The translations under genes and the position numbers were made by a program. Positions 29,390 to 48,652 of a stretch of DNA of 64,000 nt are shown here, piece by piece. The stretch is taken from NCBI RefSeq assembly GCF_026109735.1, contig NZ_CP069620.1, forward strand, positions 1,240,001 to 1,304,000, written 5' to 3'. Numbering within the stretch: position 1 is the first letter of the stretch; the number at the start of each line of letters is the position of its first letter. Source of the stretch: Salinimicrobium tongyeongense (lineage in GTDB: Bacteria; Bacteroidota; Bacteroidia; Flavobacteriales; Flavobacteriaceae). Below the pieces are notes generated by a model. That model saw only the letters and a program-made list of their open reading frames with translations. It searched no databases and was not told where the DNA came from.

Positions 29390-29553
29390 AAAACAAAAAA
29401 GCCCTTCCCAAAAAAGGGAAAAGCTTCTCATTGGTTTACTTCTAAACCCAGGTAAGTCAAAGACTTACCACAAACAACACAACTAACGTTTACTGCGAAA
29501 AAAAGCTCCCCGTATTTGAGGAGCTTCTTTGCAATTTGCGGTCTGGACGAGAC
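29390..29553. repeat. Left attachment repeat of the genomic island (164 bp)
   Basis: Identical over 164 bases to 48430-48593. It ends with 15 bases that correspond to the 3' end of tRNA-Asp, followed (reading the minus strand) by the tRNA terminator hairpins, but the rest of the tRNA is absent here. This is the att copy left on the far side after integration. It includes the perfect inverted repeat GGTAAGTC-AAA-GACTTACC at 29451-29469. No gene lies between 29288 and 29644. Confidence 0.93.
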
Positions 29554-29644
29554 AGAACAGTATTTCATTAACCAAGTCATTCCCAACCAATTACAAGCAA
29601 AACCATAGAAAGGGTCCCTTTATTGTAATAAAAATCCACTAATT

Positions 29645-32530
29645 CTAAGGTTTAACAGTGATTTCTTTTATTAAATCTACAATTTTCTGTGTACTGAATT
29701 GAGTCTTAAAATTGATTTTAACATTCCCACCAAAAAACTTCTCTGCATGTTTTATTTTTTGCTTCTCTTCATCTCTCAGGCGATCTTTTCCAGAAACATC
29801 TTTAGTTTCAATTATAAAATGTAGCTTTTTTTCACCATTGTTTAGATGGAGGACATAGGCAAAATCGGGGGAGTAACTTTTTCCCCCAGCTACAGGAATT
29901 TTAATGGAATTTTTGGGAATCTTAGTGAAGACTACTACTTCTTCAATTGGAGATTCAATATTTTCCTTTTCTAGTTCAGAGTCATAATATAATTCGTCGA
30001 AAAAGTAGTCTTTATTAACAGGCAAATCAGAATATTTCACTCCAACATCTGAGGCGGAAATTTCTTTTAAAACCTCTCCTTCACTATTAGTAATTTTTGT
30101 CGGGTGAATAGTATTTGAAACTTTCATATACTCAATGCTGAACTTATCTACGGCATTGTACATCAAGAAATTATTAAAGTTTTGTTTTATAAGTCTTACT
30201 GTGGAATTATTCAGATACTTATTAATCTCAATTTCCGAAGCAATTAAAGCCTCATGAATAGTCTTAATGTTGAGATTTGTTGATCCTGCCAATTCCAATA
30301 AAAACTCACTATAATCCATAGTTGAAATAGGTGTAATATCTTCATCAAGGATAGAAATTTCATCTGATGAAATTGCTTGGTCATCTTTTATTTCAATTTT
30401 AGATCTACGCTCTCTTATTCCTTCTACAGAAAAATTTGCTTTCTGTTCTATAAAAAATTCCGTCAACAGTTTTTTAAATTGAGACTCTTCATGAAATTTA
30501 TACTCCAAAATCACTTTTTCATTGAGTTTTTCCCACAACTCCTTTAAGTCCTGATATTTTTCTGTTCTAATTTTCAGTCTCTTGTTTGATTCCGTAGATT
30601 TTCTAATTTTATTCGAACCTACTCCTTGAAAGATTAAGGGATATTTGTTTTTTATATATATAAATCCTCCCTCTTTAAATTTATTTGTTCTTGTTACAAC
30701 ATTATCTTGGTCAAGTAAATCCAGTAGTTCATCTTCACTAGTCTCATACAAATCACAGATTTTTTTTATCATTTCACCAGAAAGTTTCTCTGGTACTTCT
30801 TCTGCGGATATTGCTCCAGATTTATAATTGATTTCATTAACAAGATGATCAATAAAATCGCTTTCTGTAAAGTCTACAAAATAGTTAAGAAAGAATTGCT
30901 CATCCTTTACCCTATTACCATATTCATTTACTGGTAAACGTAAACCTCGTCCTACTTCTTGCAATTTTGAGATCTCGCTTCCACTACTTCTTAATTTACA
31001 AATCTGAAATACATTAGGATTATCCCAACCTTCTCTTAAGGTCCACTTTGAGAATATAAATCGTCTTGGATTACCCAAATCAAGCATGGCTTGTTTGTTA
31101 TGCAAAATTTCATCCACCTGCTGGCTTATATCATCTTCTTTGTTTGAATCCTTCCCTTTTTTATCTACCGCAAAATATCCTCCATGAGTTCGAGAAATAG
31201 CCTTTAAAGATTTTTCTAAATAGCTCCTATAGAACAAGTTTTTTTCATCCTTTAGTAAGTGCCTTATTTCAGCTTCCACTAATCGTTCTAAAGTCTTTTT
31301 AATATATCCATCTTCCTTCCTATATTCTTCTATATTATCTATGAAAAACAGAGTTAGAGGCTTTATCTTAACATCTCTCGTCAATAGCGCTTTCTCTATT
31401 AGGAAATGATTCTTCACAGCCTTCTGAATCATTGTCTCCTGTACAGTTTGTGCATAGGAATAAGGGTTTATTTTATCACCCTTTTTCATTTCTAGACCAT
31501 TTGATAATTCCACTTTACTCTTGCTAAGATTCTCAATTATCAAATCGATCATTTCGGAATGAACTTTTTGAAGGCTTTCTTTCCTACTTAATTTCACCCT
31601 TTGTTTTTTACCATTTTCTATTAATTCAAAAGTAGCTTCTTTACCATCAGTATTTATTAACCTTACCAATGCATTTTTCCCACTTTCAAACTCTGTAATG
31701 TGACCTATAACACCTTTAACCAAGTTATTATTGAAAGAGTCCACTGCAGACAGTGTGTAAATAAGATTTTCATATTCCTGAAAAGTTGCCCCATATCTAA
31801 GAATAAATTGAGGTCCCATTTTTTGAATATTTCCCCACGTCTTATTGACTTGGGAAAATTTGTGAGGTTCATCAATAATTACAAAAGGCTTAACGGCAGA
31901 TATTCCTTTAAATGGTACGGTATATTCATCGAAGAGACCCTTATCATAACTCTTCTGCATCGTATCAGAATTAATCATACCAGTATTAATTATCATTACC
32001 TGGATTTTTGAGTGTTCAAAGTCACCAGAAGAAACGAAGGAACTAACGGCAGGAGGCATATTTGATTTTCTCTTTTGAGATCCTTTAATACTCTCGACCT
32101 TATGCAATCTTATAGTTTTTCCATATTGCTCTTTAAAATGTTGACGAGAAGTGTCAGATTTTATGAAATCTATGGCCCCTGCTTTTATGGATAAAGTTGG
32201 AACTACAACTATAAATTTGAAAATCCCGAAATGTTTGTTCATTTCAAAAATTGTCTTGACATAGGTATAGGTTTTTCCTGTACCTGTCTCCATCATAATG
32301 TCTAAAATATTACTCTGACCACTTGGCAGTTCTTTAATCCCATTGTGACCCTGAATTAACCTTAGGTTTTCACTATATCTCATTCCCGTTTTATGATTGA
32401 AAACAGGATTGATGAAATTTTTATTTACTCCTGAAGATTTCTGTATCTCTAGATGATTAAAAACAGCTAGAGTACTTTCTACTGCCTGAGTCTGATGCTG
32501 AAGATTCTTTTCAAAATTAAATCCCTTCAT
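29645..32530 (-). CDS. res: Type III restriction enzyme, Res subunit
   Basis: ATP-dependent endonuclease/translocase that cuts DNA when two unmodified sites meet. The 961 residues include Walker A METGTGKTYTYV near 80-90, the superfamily 2 Walker B as IDEPH near 213, helicase motif VI region (LQEVGRGLRLPV), and a C-terminal PD-(D/E)xK-type nuclease (SPDFAYVL...FIIETKD, about 895-925). It starts 1 base from the stop of mod. The gene is intact, so with mod it should form a working system. DEPH instead of DEAH is seen in type III Res proteins. Confidence 0.92.
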   Translation of the reverse strand: MKGFNFEKNLQHQTQAVESTLAVFNHLEIQKSSGVNKNFINPVFNHKTGMRYSENLRLIQGHNGIKELPSGQSNILDIMMETGTGKTYTYVKTIFEMNKHFGIFKFIVVVPTLSIKAGAIDFIKSDTSRQHFKEQYGKTIRLHKVESIKGSQKRKSNMPPAVSSFVSSGDFEHSKIQVMIINTGMINSDTMQKSYDKGLFDEYTVPFKGISAVKPFVIIDEPHKFSQVNKTWGNIQKMGPQFILRYGATFQEYENLIYTLSAVDSFNNNLVKGVIGHITEFESGKNALVRLINTDGKEATFELIENGKKQRVKLSRKESLQKVHSEMIDLIIENLSKSKVELSNGLEMKKGDKINPYSYAQTVQETMIQKAVKNHFLIEKALLTRDVKIKPLTLFFIDNIEEYRKEDGYIKKTLERLVEAEIRHLLKDEKNLFYRSYLEKSLKAISRTHGGYFAVDKKGKDSNKEDDISQQVDEILHNKQAMLDLGNPRRFIFSKWTLREGWDNPNVFQICKLRSSGSEISKLQEVGRGLRLPVNEYGNRVKDEQFFLNYFVDFTESDFIDHLVNEINYKSGAISAEEVPEKLSGEMIKKICDLYETSEDELLDLLDQDNVVTRTNKFKEGGFIYIKNKYPLIFQGVGSNKIRKSTESNKRLKIRTEKYQDLKELWEKLNEKVILEYKFHEESQFKKLLTEFFIEQKANFSVEGIRERRSKIEIKDDQAISSDEISILDEDITPISTMDYSEFLLELAGSTNLNIKTIHEALIASEIEINKYLNNSTVRLIKQNFNNFLMYNAVDKFSIEYMKVSNTIHPTKITNSEGEVLKEISASDVGVKYSDLPVNKDYFFDELYYDSELEKENIESPIEEVVVFTKIPKNSIKIPVAGGKSYSPDFAYVLHLNNGEKKLHFIIETKDVSGKDRLRDEEKQKIKHAEKFFGGNVKINFKTQFSTQKIVDLIKEITVKP

Positions 32531-32531
32531 T

Positions 32532-34688
32532 TTAATACCTGATTATGAAGTCAATATCAATATTCTTCTTATTAGAATAAGTCTTTATATTTTCCGCGAT
32601 CTCTCGTAGATTTTTACTTTCGAAGTGATAACCAAAAGCAACAATTGAGGTAGGATTAAATTTTTTATTAGTGTCAATTTCTTCAAGCAAAGCTTTTAAA
32701 TTAATGGTTTTAAATCCTTTATTAACTAAGTACAATCTTTTTTCCGTAAAGTAGGAAATGTAATTCCCTAACAAGATTTCCTCCAGTTCATTTGTTAATG
32801 CAATTCCATCATATGTTTTCCATGTTGTAAGCAATGCTTTTAAATCCTCATCAACTAATTTTTTTTCATCAAATAATTTCGTTTGAGCTTCTAGTTTCTC
32901 TGCTTTCAAATTGTAGTCCTCCCAAACAGGAAAAGTTTCAAAAATTTTTAGCCCTAAATCCATTTCAGACAAATCTCTTGCCTTGCTTTCTGGAATTTCA
33001 ACGGTATGCTTCTTACCACAGAATTCACATAATTCTTTTTTTGAACTTGAAGGCTTATCCACATTCTCTTTTTCTATCCTTTTTGCTGACCTGATCAACC
33101 TTTCTTTGGTAATATCAAATATTGTCGGTGTTTTTACACTCAGTTTATTTTTAGCAAAATCGTATGCTGCCTTATCTTTCTTTGGGTCAATAATTTCTGG
33201 TAGTTGCACTAAAATATATTTTCTATTTCCACCATCATTTGCATTTAACTCCATTACTGCATCTCCAGTAGTTCCTGATCCTGCAAAAAAATCTAAAACA
33301 ATAAAGTCTTTATCTGGTATTAAACTAATTATATATTTAATTAAATTCCTGTTTTTAGGATTACTGAAGACCCCACTAACTCCTAAAAGATCGGCTAATT
33401 GGGTGGTTCCATCATTAGTGGAAAACTTTAATATGCTTCTACTATTTGTGGTATCATCATATGTAACATAAAATTTTCCATCTATAGACTCAACATTTTC
33501 TGAAGGAATAAAATTTCTTTTATTTACAGTATATCCGTTTTTAGTTTTTTTGATAATAATCTTTGCGCTATCCTTTGTGAATTTTGGCAACTCCCATGTC
33601 CATGCTCCCAACTTTCCACGAACCTTTGGAGGTCTGATTTTAATATAACCTCTTTCTAAAAGATCAATATTATCTTCATAAACTTCTTCCTCATTATTCG
33701 AAGTCTTGGCTAATTCAATATTATAATCTTGAATTCCCTGAAAATCTTTTGTTTCAGGATTATAATAAACAGTGTAGCCTAAATTATGTCGCTTATTCAA
33801 TGTACCTCCGTCTCCTCTAGTAGTAATAGGATCTTTAATTTCAAAAAACTTGTCTTCTTCTTTGAAAACTTCTTTTGTGACAACTTTTTTTCTTTCTAAT
33901 GATGCTTTAATATCTGTTGCTGATATATATTGTGTTTCTTTCCTATAACAGATCAAATATTCATGGTTCTTTTGAACATTAGTAGTATCATTTTTAGAAT
34001 TAAGTTTATTATGAACAATTTGAGCAATAAAATTTTCCTCACCAAAAACAGTATCCATTAACACGCGAAGTTGGGCAACTTCATTATCATCAATAGATAC
34101 AAAAATGACCCCATCCTCATCCAATAATTGTCTTGCAATGTATAAACGAGGATACATAAAAGTTAACCATGCAGAATGAGAGTTACTATTGCTCTGAGTA
34201 AAATCTAATATCCTCTTGGCTTTTTCTTCATCAATACCAGCCAATTCTTTTAATTCATCTACTGTAAACTTTCGGTTATCTTTATAAACAAAACCATCAC
34301 TCCCAGTATTATAGGGGGGATCAATATATATTAGTCTAATAGCTTCATTATAGGCATTTGATAAGTGTTTTAGTACCTCAAGATTATCTCCCTTAATTAA
34401 TAAATTCTGAGAATCCTTATTGCCCTCTTTATTATTAAAGGCTTCATCCTCTTTCAATAACGTGGTTGGATCGTTAGTAGCTAAAATCTGAGCATAGGAT
34501 TTCCCCAGCCAATCTAGAGTGTAACTTTCCACTGAAAAGTCTACTTCATTCTCTGCAATTTCTTGTTTAAACTTTTCAATATCGAAAGTTCCAGTTTTGG
34601 TAAAACATTGTCCGAAATATTTTTTCAGGATTTCAATATTATTTGGGATTGATTCTGTTAGGTTAGATCTATTCTCTTCGTTGCCCAT
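32532..34688 (-). CDS. mod: Type III DNA methyltransferase, Mod subunit (adenine-N6)
   Basis: Recognises the target sequence and methylates adenine for the type III system. The 718-residue protein has beta-class order: DPPYNTG (motif IV, residues 123-129) precedes the SAM-binding motif LDFFAGSGTTGD (465-476). The region between them (about 220-440) is the presumed target-recognition domain. A CxxC-H element (CEFCGKKH) occurs near 555. The first gene of the mod-res operon, transcribed divergently from the helicase gene. The SerAsn-rich string near 165 (TQSNSNSHS) is not a simple repeat, so no phase-variable tract is evident. Confidence 0.93.
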   Translation of the reverse strand: MGNEENRSNLTESIPNNIEILKKYFGQCFTKTGTFDIEKFKQEIAENEVDFSVESYTLDWLGKSYAQILATNDPTTLLKEDEAFNNKEGNKDSQNLLIKGDNLEVLKHLSNAYNEAIRLIYIDPPYNTGSDGFVYKDNRKFTVDELKELAGIDEEKAKRILDFTQSNSNSHSAWLTFMYPRLYIARQLLDEDGVIFVSIDDNEVAQLRVLMDTVFGEENFIAQIVHNKLNSKNDTTNVQKNHEYLICYRKETQYISATDIKASLERKKVVTKEVFKEEDKFFEIKDPITTRGDGGTLNKRHNLGYTVYYNPETKDFQGIQDYNIELAKTSNNEEEVYEDNIDLLERGYIKIRPPKVRGKLGAWTWELPKFTKDSAKIIIKKTKNGYTVNKRNFIPSENVESIDGKFYVTYDDTTNSRSILKFSTNDGTTQLADLLGVSGVFSNPKNRNLIKYIISLIPDKDFIVLDFFAGSGTTGDAVMELNANDGGNRKYILVQLPEIIDPKKDKAAYDFAKNKLSVKTPTIFDITKERLIRSAKRIEKENVDKPSSSKKELCEFCGKKHTVEIPESKARDLSEMDLGLKIFETFPVWEDYNLKAEKLEAQTKLFDEKKLVDEDLKALLTTWKTYDGIALTNELEEILLGNYISYFTEKRLYLVNKGFKTINLKALLEEIDTNKKFNPTSIVAFGYHFESKNLREIAENIKTYSNKKNIDIDFIIRY

Positions 34689-36509: not shown

Positions 36510-37781
36510 TGACAGTTAAGGATTATATTTAAAGAGTTGAAACAAAAAACATTAACCCTTAAAACTGTCAGAATGAATACAGAAGCAAAGGTAATTAAAT
36601 CTAAAGTAGGTTTATTACAGTTAGCAGAACAATTAGGAAACGTGTCCCAGGCTTGTAAACTCTTTGGTTATAGCAGGGATAGTTTTTACCGCTTTAAAGA
36701 ACTTTATGACCAGGGAGGTGAGTTAGCACTACGAGAGCTCAATAGAAGAAGGCCAAATCTTAAGAATAGGATTGAAGAAGAAACAGAAAAAGCAGCAATC
36801 CAGATTGCTTTTGATTATCCTGCTTTTGGACAACTTCGCGCTTCCAATGAACTCAAAAAGAAAGGAATTTTTATCTCACCAGCAGGTGTTCGATGTGTAT
36901 GGTTACGCAATGATCTGGAGACTTTTAAAAAAAGGCTGAAGTACTTAGAAGCCAGAATGGCCCAGGATGGACTGGTGTTGACTGATGCTCAACTAAATGC
37001 CTTGGAGAAAGCGAAAGAAGAAAAGAAAGCCCATGGAGAAATAGAAACCCACCACCCCGGCTATCTTGGAGCTCAGGATACCTATTATGTAGGAACCATC
37101 AAAGGAGTTGGAAGAATCTATCAGCAAACATTCATTGACACGTATTGCAAAGTAGCCCATGCTAAACTTTATGATCGTAAAAATGCTCTTGTAGCTGCTG
37201 ATATGCTAAATGATCGGGTGTTACCCTTCTACGAAGAGCAAGACCTGCGACTTTTAAGAATATTAAGCGATAGAGGCACAGAATTCTGTGGCCATAGAGA
37301 GCACCACGAATATCAACTTTACCTGGCTATCGAGGATATAGATCATACAAAGACCAAGGCTAAAAGCCCGCAAACCAACGGAATCTGTGAACGCTTCCAC
37401 AGGACGATTCAGGATGAGTTTTACGCCATTACCTTTAGGAAAAAGATCTACACCTCCATAGAGGAGATACAAGCTGATCTGGATGATTGGTTAAACTACT
37501 ATAACAATGAAAGAACCCACTCCGGAAAACATTGTTTTGGAAAAACTCCGATGCAAACTTTGCTCGACAGCAAACATTTGGCTGATGAAAAAATGCTGGA
37601 TTTACAATCGGAAAAACTCGTACCTTTATTAAAGGCAGGTAAAGCGGAAACAGGCTCTGGTGGAGACCAACCTGTCAGGAATAACTTGCCTGACGACTGG
37701 AATGGTCAAGGGGCTCCAAACGAGCCCCTAAATCAGGTTTATTCCAAAAGTCAAAATGCCTAAAAAAACTCTTAACTGTCA
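36510..37781 (+). mobile_element. IS481-type insertion sequence
   Basis: About 1,272 bases ending in terminal inverted repeats TGACAGTTAAG (36510-36520) and CTTAACTGTCA (37771-37781). It contains one DDE transposase gene. I find no convincing target duplication: the left flank ends ...GATAAAATC and the right begins GACGAGATC. This suggests an adjacent deletion or later rearrangement. The element lies directly after the helicase stop codon and removes the start of the next frame. Confidence 0.85.
36573..37763 (+). CDS. IS481-family transposase
   Basis: DDE transposase of 396 residues. N-terminal helix-turn-helix region (LAEQLGNVSQACKLFGYSRDSFYRFKEL, first part near 15-40) followed by an rve-type RNase H fold. 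Catalytic acids fit QDTYYVGTI/FIDTYCKVAHAKL, ILSDRGTEFCG and TNGICERFHRTIQDEFY. The ATG at 36573 is preferred; an in-frame TTG at 36537 would add 12 residues. The gene is intact, so the element may still be active. Confidence 0.93.
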   Translation: MNTEAKVIKSKVGLLQLAEQLGNVSQACKLFGYSRDSFYRFKELYDQGGELALRELNRRRPNLKNRIEEETEKAAIQIAFDYPAFGQLRASNELKKKGIFISPAGVRCVWLRNDLETFKKRLKYLEARMAQDGLVLTDAQLNALEKAKEEKKAHGEIETHHPGYLGAQDTYYVGTIKGVGRIYQQTFIDTYCKVAHAKLYDRKNALVAADMLNDRVLPFYEEQDLRLLRILSDRGTEFCGHREHHEYQLYLAIEDIDHTKTKAKSPQTNGICERFHRTIQDEFYAITFRKKIYTSIEEIQADLDDWLNYYNNERTHSGKHCFGKTPMQTLLDSKHLADEKMLDLQSEKLVPLLKAGKAETGSGGDQPVRNNLPDDWNGQGAPNEPLNQVYSKSQNA

Positions 37782-38618: not shown

Positions 38619-39971
38619 GACACTATCCCGTAAAGTGTGTAAGTTTAAATAAAGGGGTTTGACTTTTTATCTAAAGTTGAACCCTTTCTTCGTATATAGT
38701 CAAGAACTGATTGAGGACGATTCCCCAGTTTCTAATAGGCACTGACCATTTTTTGGTTGCTTCCCTCAGAGCCAAATATACAGATTTCATTACAGCATCA
38801 TCGGTTGGGAAGGATAATTTGTTTTTAGTGTACTTTCTGATCTTCCCGTTCAGATTCTCAATAAGATTGGTGGTATAAATAATTCGTCTGATCTCCAGCG
38901 GGAATTCATAAAAGACGGTAAGGTCTTCCCAGTTGTCTCTCCAGCTTTTTATTGCATAAGAATATTTGGAGTTCCATTTGTTAGCAAAATCCTCTAGAGC
39001 AGCTTCTGCGGCTTGTTTAGTAGGTGCATCATAAATGAGCTTCATGTCTTTGGTAAAGGCTTTTTTATCTTTCCAAACTACATATCTACAGGCATTTCTG
39101 ATCTGGTGCACTACACAAATTTGGGTTTTAGACTGTGGAAAAACATTTTTGATGGTATCGGTAAATCCATTGAGGTTATCGGTAGCAGTGATTAAAATGT
39201 CCTCAACTCCCCGAGCTTTCATATCTGTCAATACGCTCATCCAGAAGGCTGCAGATTCATTCTTTCCAAGCCAAAGACCAAGAACTTCCTTTTTACCATC
39301 TCTTTTGAGACCTACAGCTATATAAATCGTCTTGTTGACTACTTTGGAGTTCTCTCGTACTTTAAAGACGATTCCGTCCATCCAGACAATCAAATAAACG
39401 GGCTCTAAAGGACGATTTTGCCAGGCAACGATATCATTGCTGATTCGGTCTGTAATTCGGGAGATAGTAGAAGTAGAGACATCAAAGCCATACACCTCAG
39501 AGATTTGTTCTTCAATATCACTATTGCTCATTCCCTTGGCATACAGCGATACAATGACATTTTCGATGCCATCAATCATGTTCTGCCGCTTGGGAACGAT
39601 CATAGGATTAAAGGATCCATCCCGGTCCCGGGGAACCTTTACAGTGTCTTCACCAAAAGAACTCCGAACCTTCTTTTTAGTATAGCCATTCCTGGTATTT
39701 CCAGATCCAGACTTCTGGTGCTTATCATAATCCAAATGGCCATCCAGTTCACCTTCAAGCATTTTCTCCAATCCACGTTTTTGAAGTTGCTTGAGAAAAC
39801 TACTAAGTTCTTCTCCTGATTTAAACTGTTTTAAAAACTCATCATCGAATAGATCTTCTTTTTTCATTACTGTGTAAATATTAGTGCCTGGAATTTGCAG
39901 GCAAGGTTAAAAAAATATGGGCGTTCGCAAACCCCCATATTTTCTACTTACACATTTTTTGAGATAGTCCC
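38619..39971 (-). mobile_element. IS256-family insertion sequence with 8-bp target duplication
   Basis: An element of 1,353 bases. Its ends are imperfect inverted repeats of about 26 bases: GACACTATCCCGTAAAGTGT at the left pairs with the inverse of the right end (GGGACTATCTCAAAAAATGT), both continuing GTAAGT. It is flanked by the perfect 8-bp duplication CTCAAAAG (38611-38618 and 39972-39979). Eight to nine bases is the IS256-family norm. Clean duplication and an intact transposase imply recent arrival. Confidence 0.93.
38671..39867 (-). CDS. IS256-family (mutator-type) transposase
   Basis: A 398-residue Transposase_mut protein. Catalytic triad candidates: the Asp in [10 protein letters not shown], the Asp in TATDNLNGF and the Glu in [14 protein letters not shown]. 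The family signature [20 protein letters not shown]-type N-terminus (about 80-100) and [13 protein letters not shown] are present. The gene is full length without frame breaks and sits within matched terminal repeats. Confidence 0.95.
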
Positions 39972-46440: not shown

Positions 46441-47637
46441 CTATATAAGTTTGTTTGCCAGTTTTGACATTTCTTCATCAACCTTTTCTTCTAAAATTGC
46501 GCCATAGTGAGCTTGTGTTATTCCAATTCTGGAATGCCCTAAAAGCTTACTGACAATTTCCATTGGCACATCATTTAGAAGCAGCACAGTGGTCGCAAAA
46601 GTCTTTCTGGCTATATGGTGAGTCAGATTGATTCTGATCCTACACAGAACAGCTATTTCCTTGAGGTAAGCATTGAAGTGAGCATTAGATCTGACAGGTA
46701 AAACCTTATCCTCCTTCAATTGCCCTTTATACTTATCCAGTAGTTTCTGAGCCACAGGAAGTAGAGGAATGGATATAGATTTTCCAGTTTTCTGCCTTTT
46801 CATCTTTATCCAGTCTCTACCGTCTTTACCTTTTAGTATATGACTACTCCGAAGATTACTCATTTCCTTAAAAGCTAAACCTGTGTAACAGCAGAATACA
46901 AAGCAGTCTCTTACCTCTTCTAACCTCTTATTCCCTAACTCTTTATTTTGTAGCTGGGAAAGTTCAGTCTTGGTAAGATAAACTACCTCCTTTTTAGCTG
47001 GCTTAGGTTTATGCATCAGAAAAGGGTTTTTATCTAAATAATCTTGAGCCACAGCGAAATTGATCATCTTCTTAAATCTCTGAAGAGTTTTATTTATGGT
47101 ACTTTGCTGCATCTCCTTTTCTGTCTTGAGGTAGTATTCAAAGTCCTTAATAAACTGGTATTTCAGCTTTTCAAGCTTCATGTCTCTCTGTTGAAATTTC
47201 CATTTAATAAATGCCTGAAGATGAGTTTTTGTATTCTCAAATTTTTGCCATGAAACTTCCTTAATATCCTTTCCTATCAACTTCTTATAGTAGTCATTAT
47301 GCTCATCATAAGCAGAAATTACACCTAATTCCTGTTTAGTCTCCTCTCCTTTGAACTTTTTGTAGATATCATCTACATCAAAGGAATTTTGATGAATTTG
47401 GAGCATTAAAAAAGCCTGACCAAGTTGTTGCTTAATCAGGCTCATTTGTTTGTTCACATATTCTGAATTTTCTGCCTTCTTCAGAACCTTTTGTTTTTCT
47501 CTATCCCAATAATCAGGGTTGATATACAGTCCTGTAGAGAATTGCTTTCGTGATTTTTCATAGGTAATTCTGCAAATGACAGGAGTTAAACCTGCCTTAT
47601 TAAGCTTTTGCTTCTTGATTAAAAATAATGTTTTCAT
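46441..47637 (-). CDS. int: Tyrosine recombinase (island integrase), Arg I replaced
   Basis: Site-specific recombinase that integrates and excises the island. The 398 residues comprise an arm-type DNA-binding domain (about 1-95; FSTGLYINPDYWD), a SAM-like core-binding domain (about 105-205) and the catalytic domain (about 215-398). Visible catalytic residues: Lys near 286 (RQKTGKSISIPL), H341-x-x-R344 (HHIARKTFATT), H368 (GHSRI) and the nucleophile Y378 (AHYGA). The first catalytic Arg, normally TGLR, is Ala in TGLAFKEM (A255), a change known from the CTnDOT-type Bacteroidota integrases. It is 942 bases from the tRNA-Asp junction. Confidence 0.93.
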   Translation of the reverse strand: MKTLFLIKKQKLNKAGLTPVICRITYEKSRKQFSTGLYINPDYWDREKQKVLKKAENSEYVNKQMSLIKQQLGQAFLMLQIHQNSFDVDDIYKKFKGEETKQELGVISAYDEHNDYYKKLIGKDIKEVSWQKFENTKTHLQAFIKWKFQQRDMKLEKLKYQFIKDFEYYLKTEKEMQQSTINKTLQRFKKMINFAVAQDYLDKNPFLMHKPKPAKKEVVYLTKTELSQLQNKELGNKRLEEVRDCFVFCCYTGLAFKEMSNLRSSHILKGKDGRDWIKMKRQKTGKSISIPLLPVAQKLLDKYKGQLKEDKVLPVRSNAHFNAYLKEIAVLCRIRINLTHHIARKTFATTVLLLNDVPMEIVSKLLGHSRIGITQAHYGAILEEKVDEEMSKLANKLI

Positions 47638-47700: not shown

Positions 47701-48318
47701 ATGAGCTGGTACAAAATTCTAGGAGCATTGGCTGCCGTCGCAACAATTCTTACGCTTCTCTTTACTTTTTTTAATGAACCCAACCCTGTTGAAGGGATTC
47801 AGATAAATGATGAAGTAGAAATCTCTGGAGGTAATTTTGCAGCAAGAGATAATATTTTCTATTATACAAGCACAAATACAGATAATTCAGAATATATCAA
47901 GCTTCTCCAACATCGGTTTAAGGCAATAGAAGATAATTTACCTAAACATTATGATCATGCTGATGTGCAGAGCTTTTTGGTTAAATTAAAAGATCTTCAT
48001 GAGCAGCATATCAAAGCTTTAAAACAAGAGGAAATGATTTTAGCTCATGAAATCTTAGGTCAAATTAGTCGCCTGTCTTTTGATTTGGAAGTTGAGGAAA
48101 GAATTTTAAAAGAAAAGAAAGCGCAACAAGAGGAAGGATATGAAATCAAATATGAAAGAGGACAACCTGTCCCCGTTACTAACGACTTGATAGGTTTTTT
48201 AATTAATGAGTATGCACATGGAGAATTTAAGCCTCATTCACGGTACGAACCTATGCCCTCTCCATATCAAAAAGCCTATAACAAGGGATTTACCTCTCAT
48301 AGCTTTTTAATGAATTAA
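47701..48318 (+). CDS. Membrane-anchored coiled-coil protein of unknown function
   Basis: A 205-residue protein with one N-terminal transmembrane helix (about 5-24), a short beta segment INDEVEISGGNFAARDNIFYYT (about 36-57, given here as adjoining parts INDEVEISGG and NFAARDNIFYY) that resembles the 'GGD/GRD' spacer strands found next to NLR-like or effector domains, and a long Glu/Lys helix (about 65-150). I recognise no family. It lies between the integrase and the right att repeat, a usual place for cargo. Confidence 0.65.
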   Translation: MSWYKILGALAAVATILTLLFTFFNEPNPVEGIQINDEVEISGGNFAARDNIFYYTSTNTDNSEYIKLLQHRFKAIEDNLPKHYDHADVQSFLVKLKDLHEQHIKALKQEEMILAHEILGQISRLSFDLEVEERILKEKKAQQEEGYEIKYERGQPVPVTNDLIGFLINEYAHGEFKPHSRYEPMPSPYQKAYNKGFTSHSFLMN

Positions 48319-48429
48319 TTCCTTGAAAGGGTCCCTTTTAATTTGTACAGGGGTCCCTTAAAAGGTCCCTTTTTTTAGATATACTTTGATAAAATAAGAG
48401 ATGTAGGAAGAAAGAAATGAAATAGGCAT
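48319..48429. repeat. Cluster of three GGTCCCTT direct repeats beside the right att, putative integrase arm sites
   Basis: Copies: GGGTCCCTTTT at 48329-48339, GGGTCCCTT at 48351-48359 and GGTCCCTTTTTTT at 48364-48376. A further GGGTCCCTTT copy lies 59 bases inside the left att end at 29612-29621. Placement inside both island ends, in the same orientation, suits arm-type binding sites of a tyrosine integrase. The last copy with its T-run may also terminate the 47701 gene. Confidence 0.5.
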
Positions 48430-48593
48430 AAAACAAAAAAGCCCTTCCCAAAAAAGGGAAAAGCTTCTCATTGGTTTACTTCTAAACCCAGGTAAGTCAA
48501 AGACTTACCACAAACAACACAACTAACGTTTACTGCGAAAAAAAGCTCCCCGTATTTGAGGAGCTTCTTTGCAATTTGCGGTCTGGACGAGAC
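48430..48593. repeat. Right attachment repeat of the genomic island (164 bp)
   Basis: Identical to 29390-29553. It covers the last 15 bases of tRNA-Asp and 149 bases downstream, including two terminator-like hairpins (48438-48470, 48538-48566) and the perfect inverted repeat GGTAAGTC-AAA-GACTTACC (48491-48509). Confidence 0.93.
48538..48566 (-). terminator. Terminator of tRNA-Asp
   Basis: On the minus strand AAGCTCC pairs with GGAGCTT and is followed by seven T. A duplicate exists in the left att repeat at 29498-29526. Confidence 0.75.
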
Positions 48594-48652
48594 TCGAACT
48601 CGCGACCCCCTGCGTGACAGGCAGGTATTCTAACCAACTGAACTACCAGACC
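48579..48652 (-). tRNA. tRNA-Asp (anticodon GTC)
   Basis: A 74-base cloverleaf read on the minus strand. The acceptor stem GGTCTGG pairs with CCAGACC and discriminator G follows. The anticodon arm is CCTGC-CTGTCAC-GCAGG, giving anticodon GTC for aspartate. The T arm is GCGAG-TTCGAGT-CTCGT. CCA is not encoded. The gene is the integration site of the neighbouring island, whose att repeat starts at tRNA position 60 and restores an intact 3' end. Confidence 0.97.

Follow-up and report, generated by a model that had tools for sequence, protein, structure and literature searches.

Repeats inside both ends of a Salinimicrobium tongyeongense genomic island as probable arm-type sites of its tyrosine integrase

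A short repeat located just inside both ends of a genomic island raises the question of which protein it serves, and whether it could represent the arm-type sites at which integrases of the lambda type dock. The window, i.e. the whole 64,000-nucleotide stretch of DNA analysed here (G000:C1:1240001-1304000), belongs to a genome assembled as a single contig of 3.51 Mb. It includes an island of ~19 kb, bounded by two identical 164-bp repeats.

The repeat in its island

The left att repeat is positioned at 29390-29553. The right one (48430-48593) is composed of the last 16 bp of tRNA-Asp, a terminator and an RNA-like element, and terminates within the 3' part of the tRNA-Asp (gtc) gene, the integration target (48578-48652, minus strand; ARAGORN and Rfam tRNA match). 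Between 29000 and 49000, the tRNA alone reached the Rfam gathering score. The empty site was found in a genome of the same genus (G754), with which the joined host flanks of the window align over 399 columns at 88% identity. This alignment spans the tRNA and the stretch downstream of it, which is native there.

The RNA-like element 3' of tRNA-Asp extends over 48430-48525 (minus strand), with a copy in the left att at 29390-29485; because it sits within the att repeat, it is duplicated by the island. It starts with the invariant GTTGTGTTGT, followed by hairpins and the terminator, and accompanies 17 of 22 tRNA-Asp loci and none of 72 other tRNAs. Compensatory changes in its 3' hairpin were observed in 6 of 13 pairs. 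No Rfam family matched the element at gathering score; similarity to the Bacteroides sRNA GibS is weak (23.9 bits, gathering score 115).

Between the att repeats, the segment 40311-42651 is a backbone shared with related islands, comprised of a 305-aa AAA_24 protein (18 of 21 islands), a 122-aa protein (17/21) and DUF3871 (17/21). Cargo at 29645-34688 resembles a type III restriction-modification pair (ResIII/RE_endonuc and N6_N4_Mtase/T3RM_EcoP15I_C). Two transposase-like genes, at 36537-37763 and 38671-39867, are related to rve_3 and the Mutator-family Transposase_mut.

The repeat GGTCCCTT is present at 29613-29620, 48330-48337, 48352-48359 and 48364-48371, always on the plus strand; neither strand of the window has a further copy. 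Its placement agrees with what an earlier note on this DNA had described: counted inwards from the right att, three copies occupy about 54-101 bp, and the fourth is 59 bp in from the left att, while the 164-bp repeat itself is devoid of GGTCCCTT. The same note had the three right-hand copies in direct order. All four are indeed on one strand, yet the order can hardly be judged from the window alone, because both 29609-29621 and 48326-48338 come close to being palindromes (AAAGGGTCCCTTT).

Read towards the integrase, on the minus strand, the proximal repeats were delimited by sequence and by triplet calling as putative arm-type sites s1 (AGGGACCTTT, 48361-48370), s2 (AGGGACCCCT, 48349-48358; the same site exists in locus L059) and s3 (AGGGACCCTT, 48327-48336), with distances of 12 bp from s1 to s2 and 22 bp from s2 to s3. 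Of the sequence up to 130 bp from the distal core, the putative distal site, also AGGGACCCTT (29610-29619, minus strand), resembles the island's proximal sites most closely (p = 0.004 relative to windows taken from this island). It is a single site, with no second one 12 bp away. Sites in the window are followed by T runs. Like lambda-type arm sites, they are internal to the element, flank the core and do not overlap the exchanged core itself.

Abundance does not distinguish the repeat. Its four copies in the window compare with a mean of 1.99 in shuffled sequences, of which 16 of 100 reach four, so there is no enrichment. A motif frequency equal to chance had been proposed earlier as evidence against arm sites, and by that check the count would have read as chance; what is unusual about GGTCCCTT is its clustering and position. 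The entire genome holds 37 copies on both strands (286 for the reversed, uncomplemented control pattern), a density that does not explain why one end of the island has three copies in a 42-bp stretch and the opposite end has the fourth.

The island encodes a tyrosine integrase of 398 aa (46441-47637, minus strand; Pfam, AlphaFold2, Foldseek). Its domains, all above curated Pfam cut-offs, are ordered as in integrases of the IntCTnDOT type: arm-binding (Arm-DNA-bind_5, PF17293), SAM-like core-binding (Phage_int_SAM_5, PF13102) and catalytic (Phage_integrase, PF00589). Residues 1-92, encoded at 47362-47637 (minus strand), make up the arm-binding segment, delimited by Pfam, AlphaFold2 and the covariation of residues 8, 21 and 32 with the sites. 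The AlphaFold2 model (mean pLDDT 86.9, pTM 0.55) predicts for this segment a three-stranded sheet (residues 2-7, 18-26 and 29-39) and a helix (58-81), placing residues 21 and 32 within strands 2 and 3 and residue 8 directly after strand 1. The best Foldseek matches are the Tn1549 and lambda integrases, at modest query-normalised TM-scores of 0.38-0.46 in the top rows.

Residues K283, H341, R344, H368 and Y378 are invariant in 50 integrase members, and we take them to be the catalytic Lys, His, Arg and His and the Tyr nucleophile. Each of the 50 aligned members has Ala, Pro or Gly at residue 255, the position at which other tyrosine recombinases have the first catalytic Arg. The CTnDOT integrase likewise is not known to have this Arg. 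An ORF of 205 aa (47701-48318, plus strand; ORF listing) separates the arm triplet from the integrase in the window and is missing there in loci L059 and L057. It has no Pfam match and no relative among the other loci examined.

Related islands and covariation with the arm-binding domain

Related loci were collected by one scan of genome contigs (22 loci), with more obtained from 397 genomes of the family, 395 of the order and 12 of the genus. Triplets were searched for in 83 loci with integrases at least 42% identical, leaving the two spacings free at 6-30 and 6-40 bp. In this unconstrained scan, the first spacing was 12 bp in 61 of 83 loci and in 8 of 415 randomised sequences. Spacing of 12 bp followed by 18-22 bp was detected in 58 of the 83 loci, against none of the 415 randomised sequences; the remaining 25 loci are without it. 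A restricted second caller gave a score of at least 19 in 33 of 67 loci and in 0.22% of 2,680 random draws. Several copies at fixed spacing are thus kept in relatives, as is characteristic of arm-type sites. Among more distant integrases (35-41% identity), there was mostly no convincing triplet.

The repeat sequence itself varies by island (AGGGACC, AGGTACC, AGGTGTAC and AGGTTACC) and is nearly constant within any one of them. Over the five variable bases, the mismatch between s2 and s3 averages 0.041 within a locus and 0.512 between loci (63 loci). Repeats in the gap between tRNA and integrase of relatives include GGTACC, GGTGCCCC, GGTGTCCC, AGGTGCGC, AGGTCACC and AGGTATACC, among others. Locus L059 (S. 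catena, integrase 83% identical) carries the repeat sequence of the window, and L057 (82%) carries GGTACC. The search near att sites of related islands suggested in the earlier note therefore recovered a triplet at the same place and spacing, although not the same motif, since the sequence differs between islands. Judged on the best calls, the third repeat is inverted in L040 and L071 only; the script penalised inverted calls, and the weakest calls are unconvincing.

This diversity, absent from the earlier note like the link to the arm-binding domain described below, allowed sites to be compared with integrase domains. Filters on call score, direct third site and protein length, plus removal by hand of L063, L069 and L077 for doubtful register or G-rich sites, reduced the 83 loci to 63. 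At 90% redundancy 60 loci were retained, and a stricter register filter, which dropped L139, L058, L084, L076, L085, L091, L099 and L015, left 55. In the 63 loci, distances among sites correlate with those among arm-binding domains (Mantel r 0.19, p 0.001), and weakly with those among core-binding (0.07, p 0.02) and catalytic domains (0.07, p 0.04). Partial Mantel tests retained the arm-binding correlation given the catalytic domain (0.17, p 0.002) and gave 0.02 (p 0.35) for the catalytic domain given the arm-binding one. The five top single columns (32, 8, 13, 21 and 33; 63 loci) all belong to the arm-binding domain, as do 14 of the top 20, while this domain accounts for 88 of the 383 columns tested.

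The strongest association links residue 32 with base 4 (z 11 in the 60 non-redundant loci). Of the 18 loci with Asp or Glu at residue 32, 17 have G at base 4, a base that none of the 37 others has there (55 loci); the sole exception among the 18 is L068 (D32, A4). On a tree built without the arm-binding domain, 16 of whose 52 inner branches were starred, 8-9 of 9 independent pairs agree and none opposes (p 0.004-0.008). Among the eight loci dropped for register, L015 follows the rule (D32, G4), six have neither D/E nor G4, and L099 breaks it as called (E32), with a register that looks shifted. Fresh loci were also inspected: of 61 new ones, 57 had upstream sequence, ten reached at least 42% identity and six passed the filter. 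All ten were from viral contigs, genomes of the class giving none at that identity. The rule is obeyed in all six (three with and three without).

At base 3, the window and L059 combine Lys 8 with G, and L057 combines Ile 8 with T. For bases 5 and 6, 8 and 7 of the 12 top columns, respectively, fall outside the arm-binding domain. Because many columns outside that domain rank equally there, only the residue 32/base 4 association is claimed firmly. We infer from it that Asp or Glu at residue 32 reads the C opposite G at base 4. More generally, covariation indicates, if indirectly, that the sites are recognised by the N-terminal domain of their cognate integrase.

Cassette exchange, far ends and alternative readings

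A direct view of how sites and domain change together is offered by loci L068 and L120, which share a tRNA-Arg target. Their integrases are 96% identical over residues 100-395 and 35% over residues 1-20. At the DNA level, identity is 99% across the tRNA and for about 50 bp past it; then follows a block of ~290 bp, about half identical, comprising the arm triplet and the first ~45 codons, after which identity returns to about 96%. Two sharp edges were seen in this pair only, the pairs L135/L138 and L129/L131 having a sharp downstream edge alone. Among the 13 listed pairs at least 85% identical outside the arm-binding domain, four have a common s3 core (arm-binding identity 0.78-1.00) and nine differ in it (0.61-0.80). 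By further inference, the arm sites together with the neighbouring 5' part of the integrase gene may form an exchangeable cassette. Its exchange would let arm specificity change quickly, with the tRNA target and the catalytic domain staying the same. As far as the sequences allow, docking specificity is very probably modular and fast-switching, changing together with the domain that reads it and, at least once, through the swap of a single small block.

For the far ends of the islands, 61 loci with a tRNA and at least 8 kb downstream were considered; in 21 of them the end of the tRNA recurs as a repeat. In 13 of these 21 islands, a GG pair with 12-bp spacing lies no more than 130 bp from the distal core, whereas 126 of 3,976 control windows from the same islands hold such a pair. 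A weak test, matching to the island's own proximal sites, reached p <= 0.05 for six of the 21 islands (combined p 1.1e-4). Distal and proximal sites are the same in the window and in L069; L057 has GGGACC distally and GGTACC proximally. Many relatives carry at the far end a conserved AGGCATAC pair which does not follow proximal switching. A distal pair with A/CGGCATAC occurs in 10 of the 21 islands, and the island's own s2/s3 differ from it in nine of those ten. A conserved distal class of this kind is not predicted by a simple arm-site model; it could belong to a second protein, or be a generic site left in place when the linked cassette is swapped. The conserved distal pair type AGGCATACTTTTAGGCATACC was recorded together with differing proximal sites in L158, L161, L163, L164, L166, L171, L157, L066, L073 and L088.

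We consider it highly probable that the island's tyrosine integrase binds these repeats as its arm-type sites. The arm-site reading proposed at the outset draws its support from comparison, namely the spacing and place of the sites in relatives and their covariation with the arm-binding domain. In the excised circle, the tRNA-Asp core would have three sites on its integrase side, spaced by 12 and 22 bp and beginning about 207 bp from the end of the tRNA, and a single site about 60 bp away on its opposite side. The N-terminal domain would grip the arm sites while the other two domains hold the core. Such bridging of arm and core would make recombination element-specific and directional, as in lambda.

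Other explanations have to be measured against the same data. Chance or low-complexity repeats, such as remains of terminators, would accord with the unremarkable raw count and with the T runs in the window, but spacing preserved in 58 loci of differing sequence and in no randomised one, together with covariation with a protein domain, makes this explanation extremely improbable. Somewhat less remote, though still very unlikely, is that the triplet is purely an operator, at which the integrase or another regulator represses the integrase promoter with no role in recombination. Many relatives have about 25-70 bp between the end of the triplet and the start of the integrase gene, and arm sites of the KplE1 integrase IntS overlap and repress the int promoter (PMC2951348); a double role is likely. 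Nine loci have more than 400 bp between tRNA and integrase, and a score of at least 27 (0.6% of 700 random draws) was required for a convincing triplet. In six of them, including the window, the triplet stays within 300 bp of the tRNA (124-207 bp); only in L034, with its single triplet-like call, is it within 300 bp of the integrase. Moreover, sites of the same build are found kilobases away at the other island end. Autoregulation of the integrase is nevertheless a likely second role of arm-type sites, as in KplE1, because the triplet adjoins the integrase start in most relatives.

Possible, if rather doubtful, is a division of labour in which the AGGCATAC distal pair and similar s1 sites are bound by a different, non-diversifying protein (an excisionase or host factor), the diversified arm-binding domain reading s2 and s3 only. 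It would account for the A/CGGCATAC pairs that disregard the island's own s2/s3, and for base 3 being C in s1 of 19 of 60 loci and in s3 of 4. The AGGCATAC pair, on the other hand, has the frame of an arm site (AGG, 12-bp spacing, same strand), and distal and proximal sites are identical in the window and L069. Perfect tracking of the pair was seen for no protein; the candidate tried, an HTH-like ORF of 81 aa, was present in 9 of 12 against 3 of 9 cases and was not decisive.

Taking the sites as arm-type, we put forward tentatively that arm specificity serves as an identity tag of the island. Islands at the same tRNA, with nearly the same catalytic domain, would exchange a short cassette, made up of the triplet and the adjacent codons that specify the DNA-reading sheet, and islands residing together or in tandem would thereby leave each other's ends unprocessed. 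Switching would be frequent, and a residue-base code (residue 32 with base 4, 8 with bases 3-5, 21 with base 5) might predict arm sites from the protein. On the tree of the rest of the integrase, G at base 4 is unclustered (15 changes, shuffled mean 14.5), which this proposal would attribute to a trait that switches so often. Two tandem pairs with unlike arms, in G241 and G755, speak for it, and the conserved distal AGGCATAC pairs that do not switch speak against it. In G755, a second att without integrase (L203, 1500-1800) has AGGGACC arms and lies behind an island with GTACCCC arms, a tandem-island remnant. Identical tandem islands with identical arms stand at a tRNA on one viral contig (L214 and L216), contrary to strict incompatibility.

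Footprinting usually reveals arm sites in single elements. In the family studied here, they can be read off the sequences of many members, along with part of a recognition code, and simple residue swaps could thereby test how such sites are recognised and how they evolve. Exchange of arm specificity as a cassette, if it occurs, would help to explain how many similar islands can use one tRNA gene without cross-recombining, and would offer ready-made orthogonal integrase/attachment-site pairs for work in Bacteroidota.

Comparison with known systems

The order of arm-binding, core-binding and catalytic domains is common to lambda-type integrases and the CTnDOT/NBU1 group of Bacteroidota. In IntCTnDOT integrases, such an arm-binding domain has been shown biochemically to contact subterminal arm sites (PMC8138268). 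The comparison concerns domains; the site sequences studied here differ between islands and switch with the arm-binding domain. In the KplE1 prophage, arm sites located between the tRNA and intS overlap the int promoter and mediate negative autoregulation (PMC2951348), while in the window the 205-aa ORF intervenes between arms and integrase. The 10K genomic island of Riemerella anatipestifer (Flavobacteriia) is of a similar type, with a tRNA-Arg target, an IntN1-like integrase, 53-bp att repeats and both integration and excision shown (PMC6764341). The main text of that report is without the word "arm", and arm sites were not examined there. A literature search, with subscription papers largely beyond reach, yielded no account of arm-site/arm-domain covariation in Bacteroidota.

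A close precedent comes from Cluster K mycobacteriophages (CrimD, Anaya, Adephagia and Pixie), in which putative arm sites and two N-terminal integrase residues differ together between near relatives. Pixie combines a pair of arm sites flanking one side with three in direct orientation on the opposite side, and CrimD has a terminator between core and arm (PMC3203893). That case concerns four K1 phages and a shift of one base, in a different phylum and a different integrase family; the present one concerns about 60 loci, a tree-tested residue-base association and a block exchange. Close as the Cluster K prior art is, what is new here is the scale, the residue-base association tested by tree and fresh loci, and the exchange of a block.
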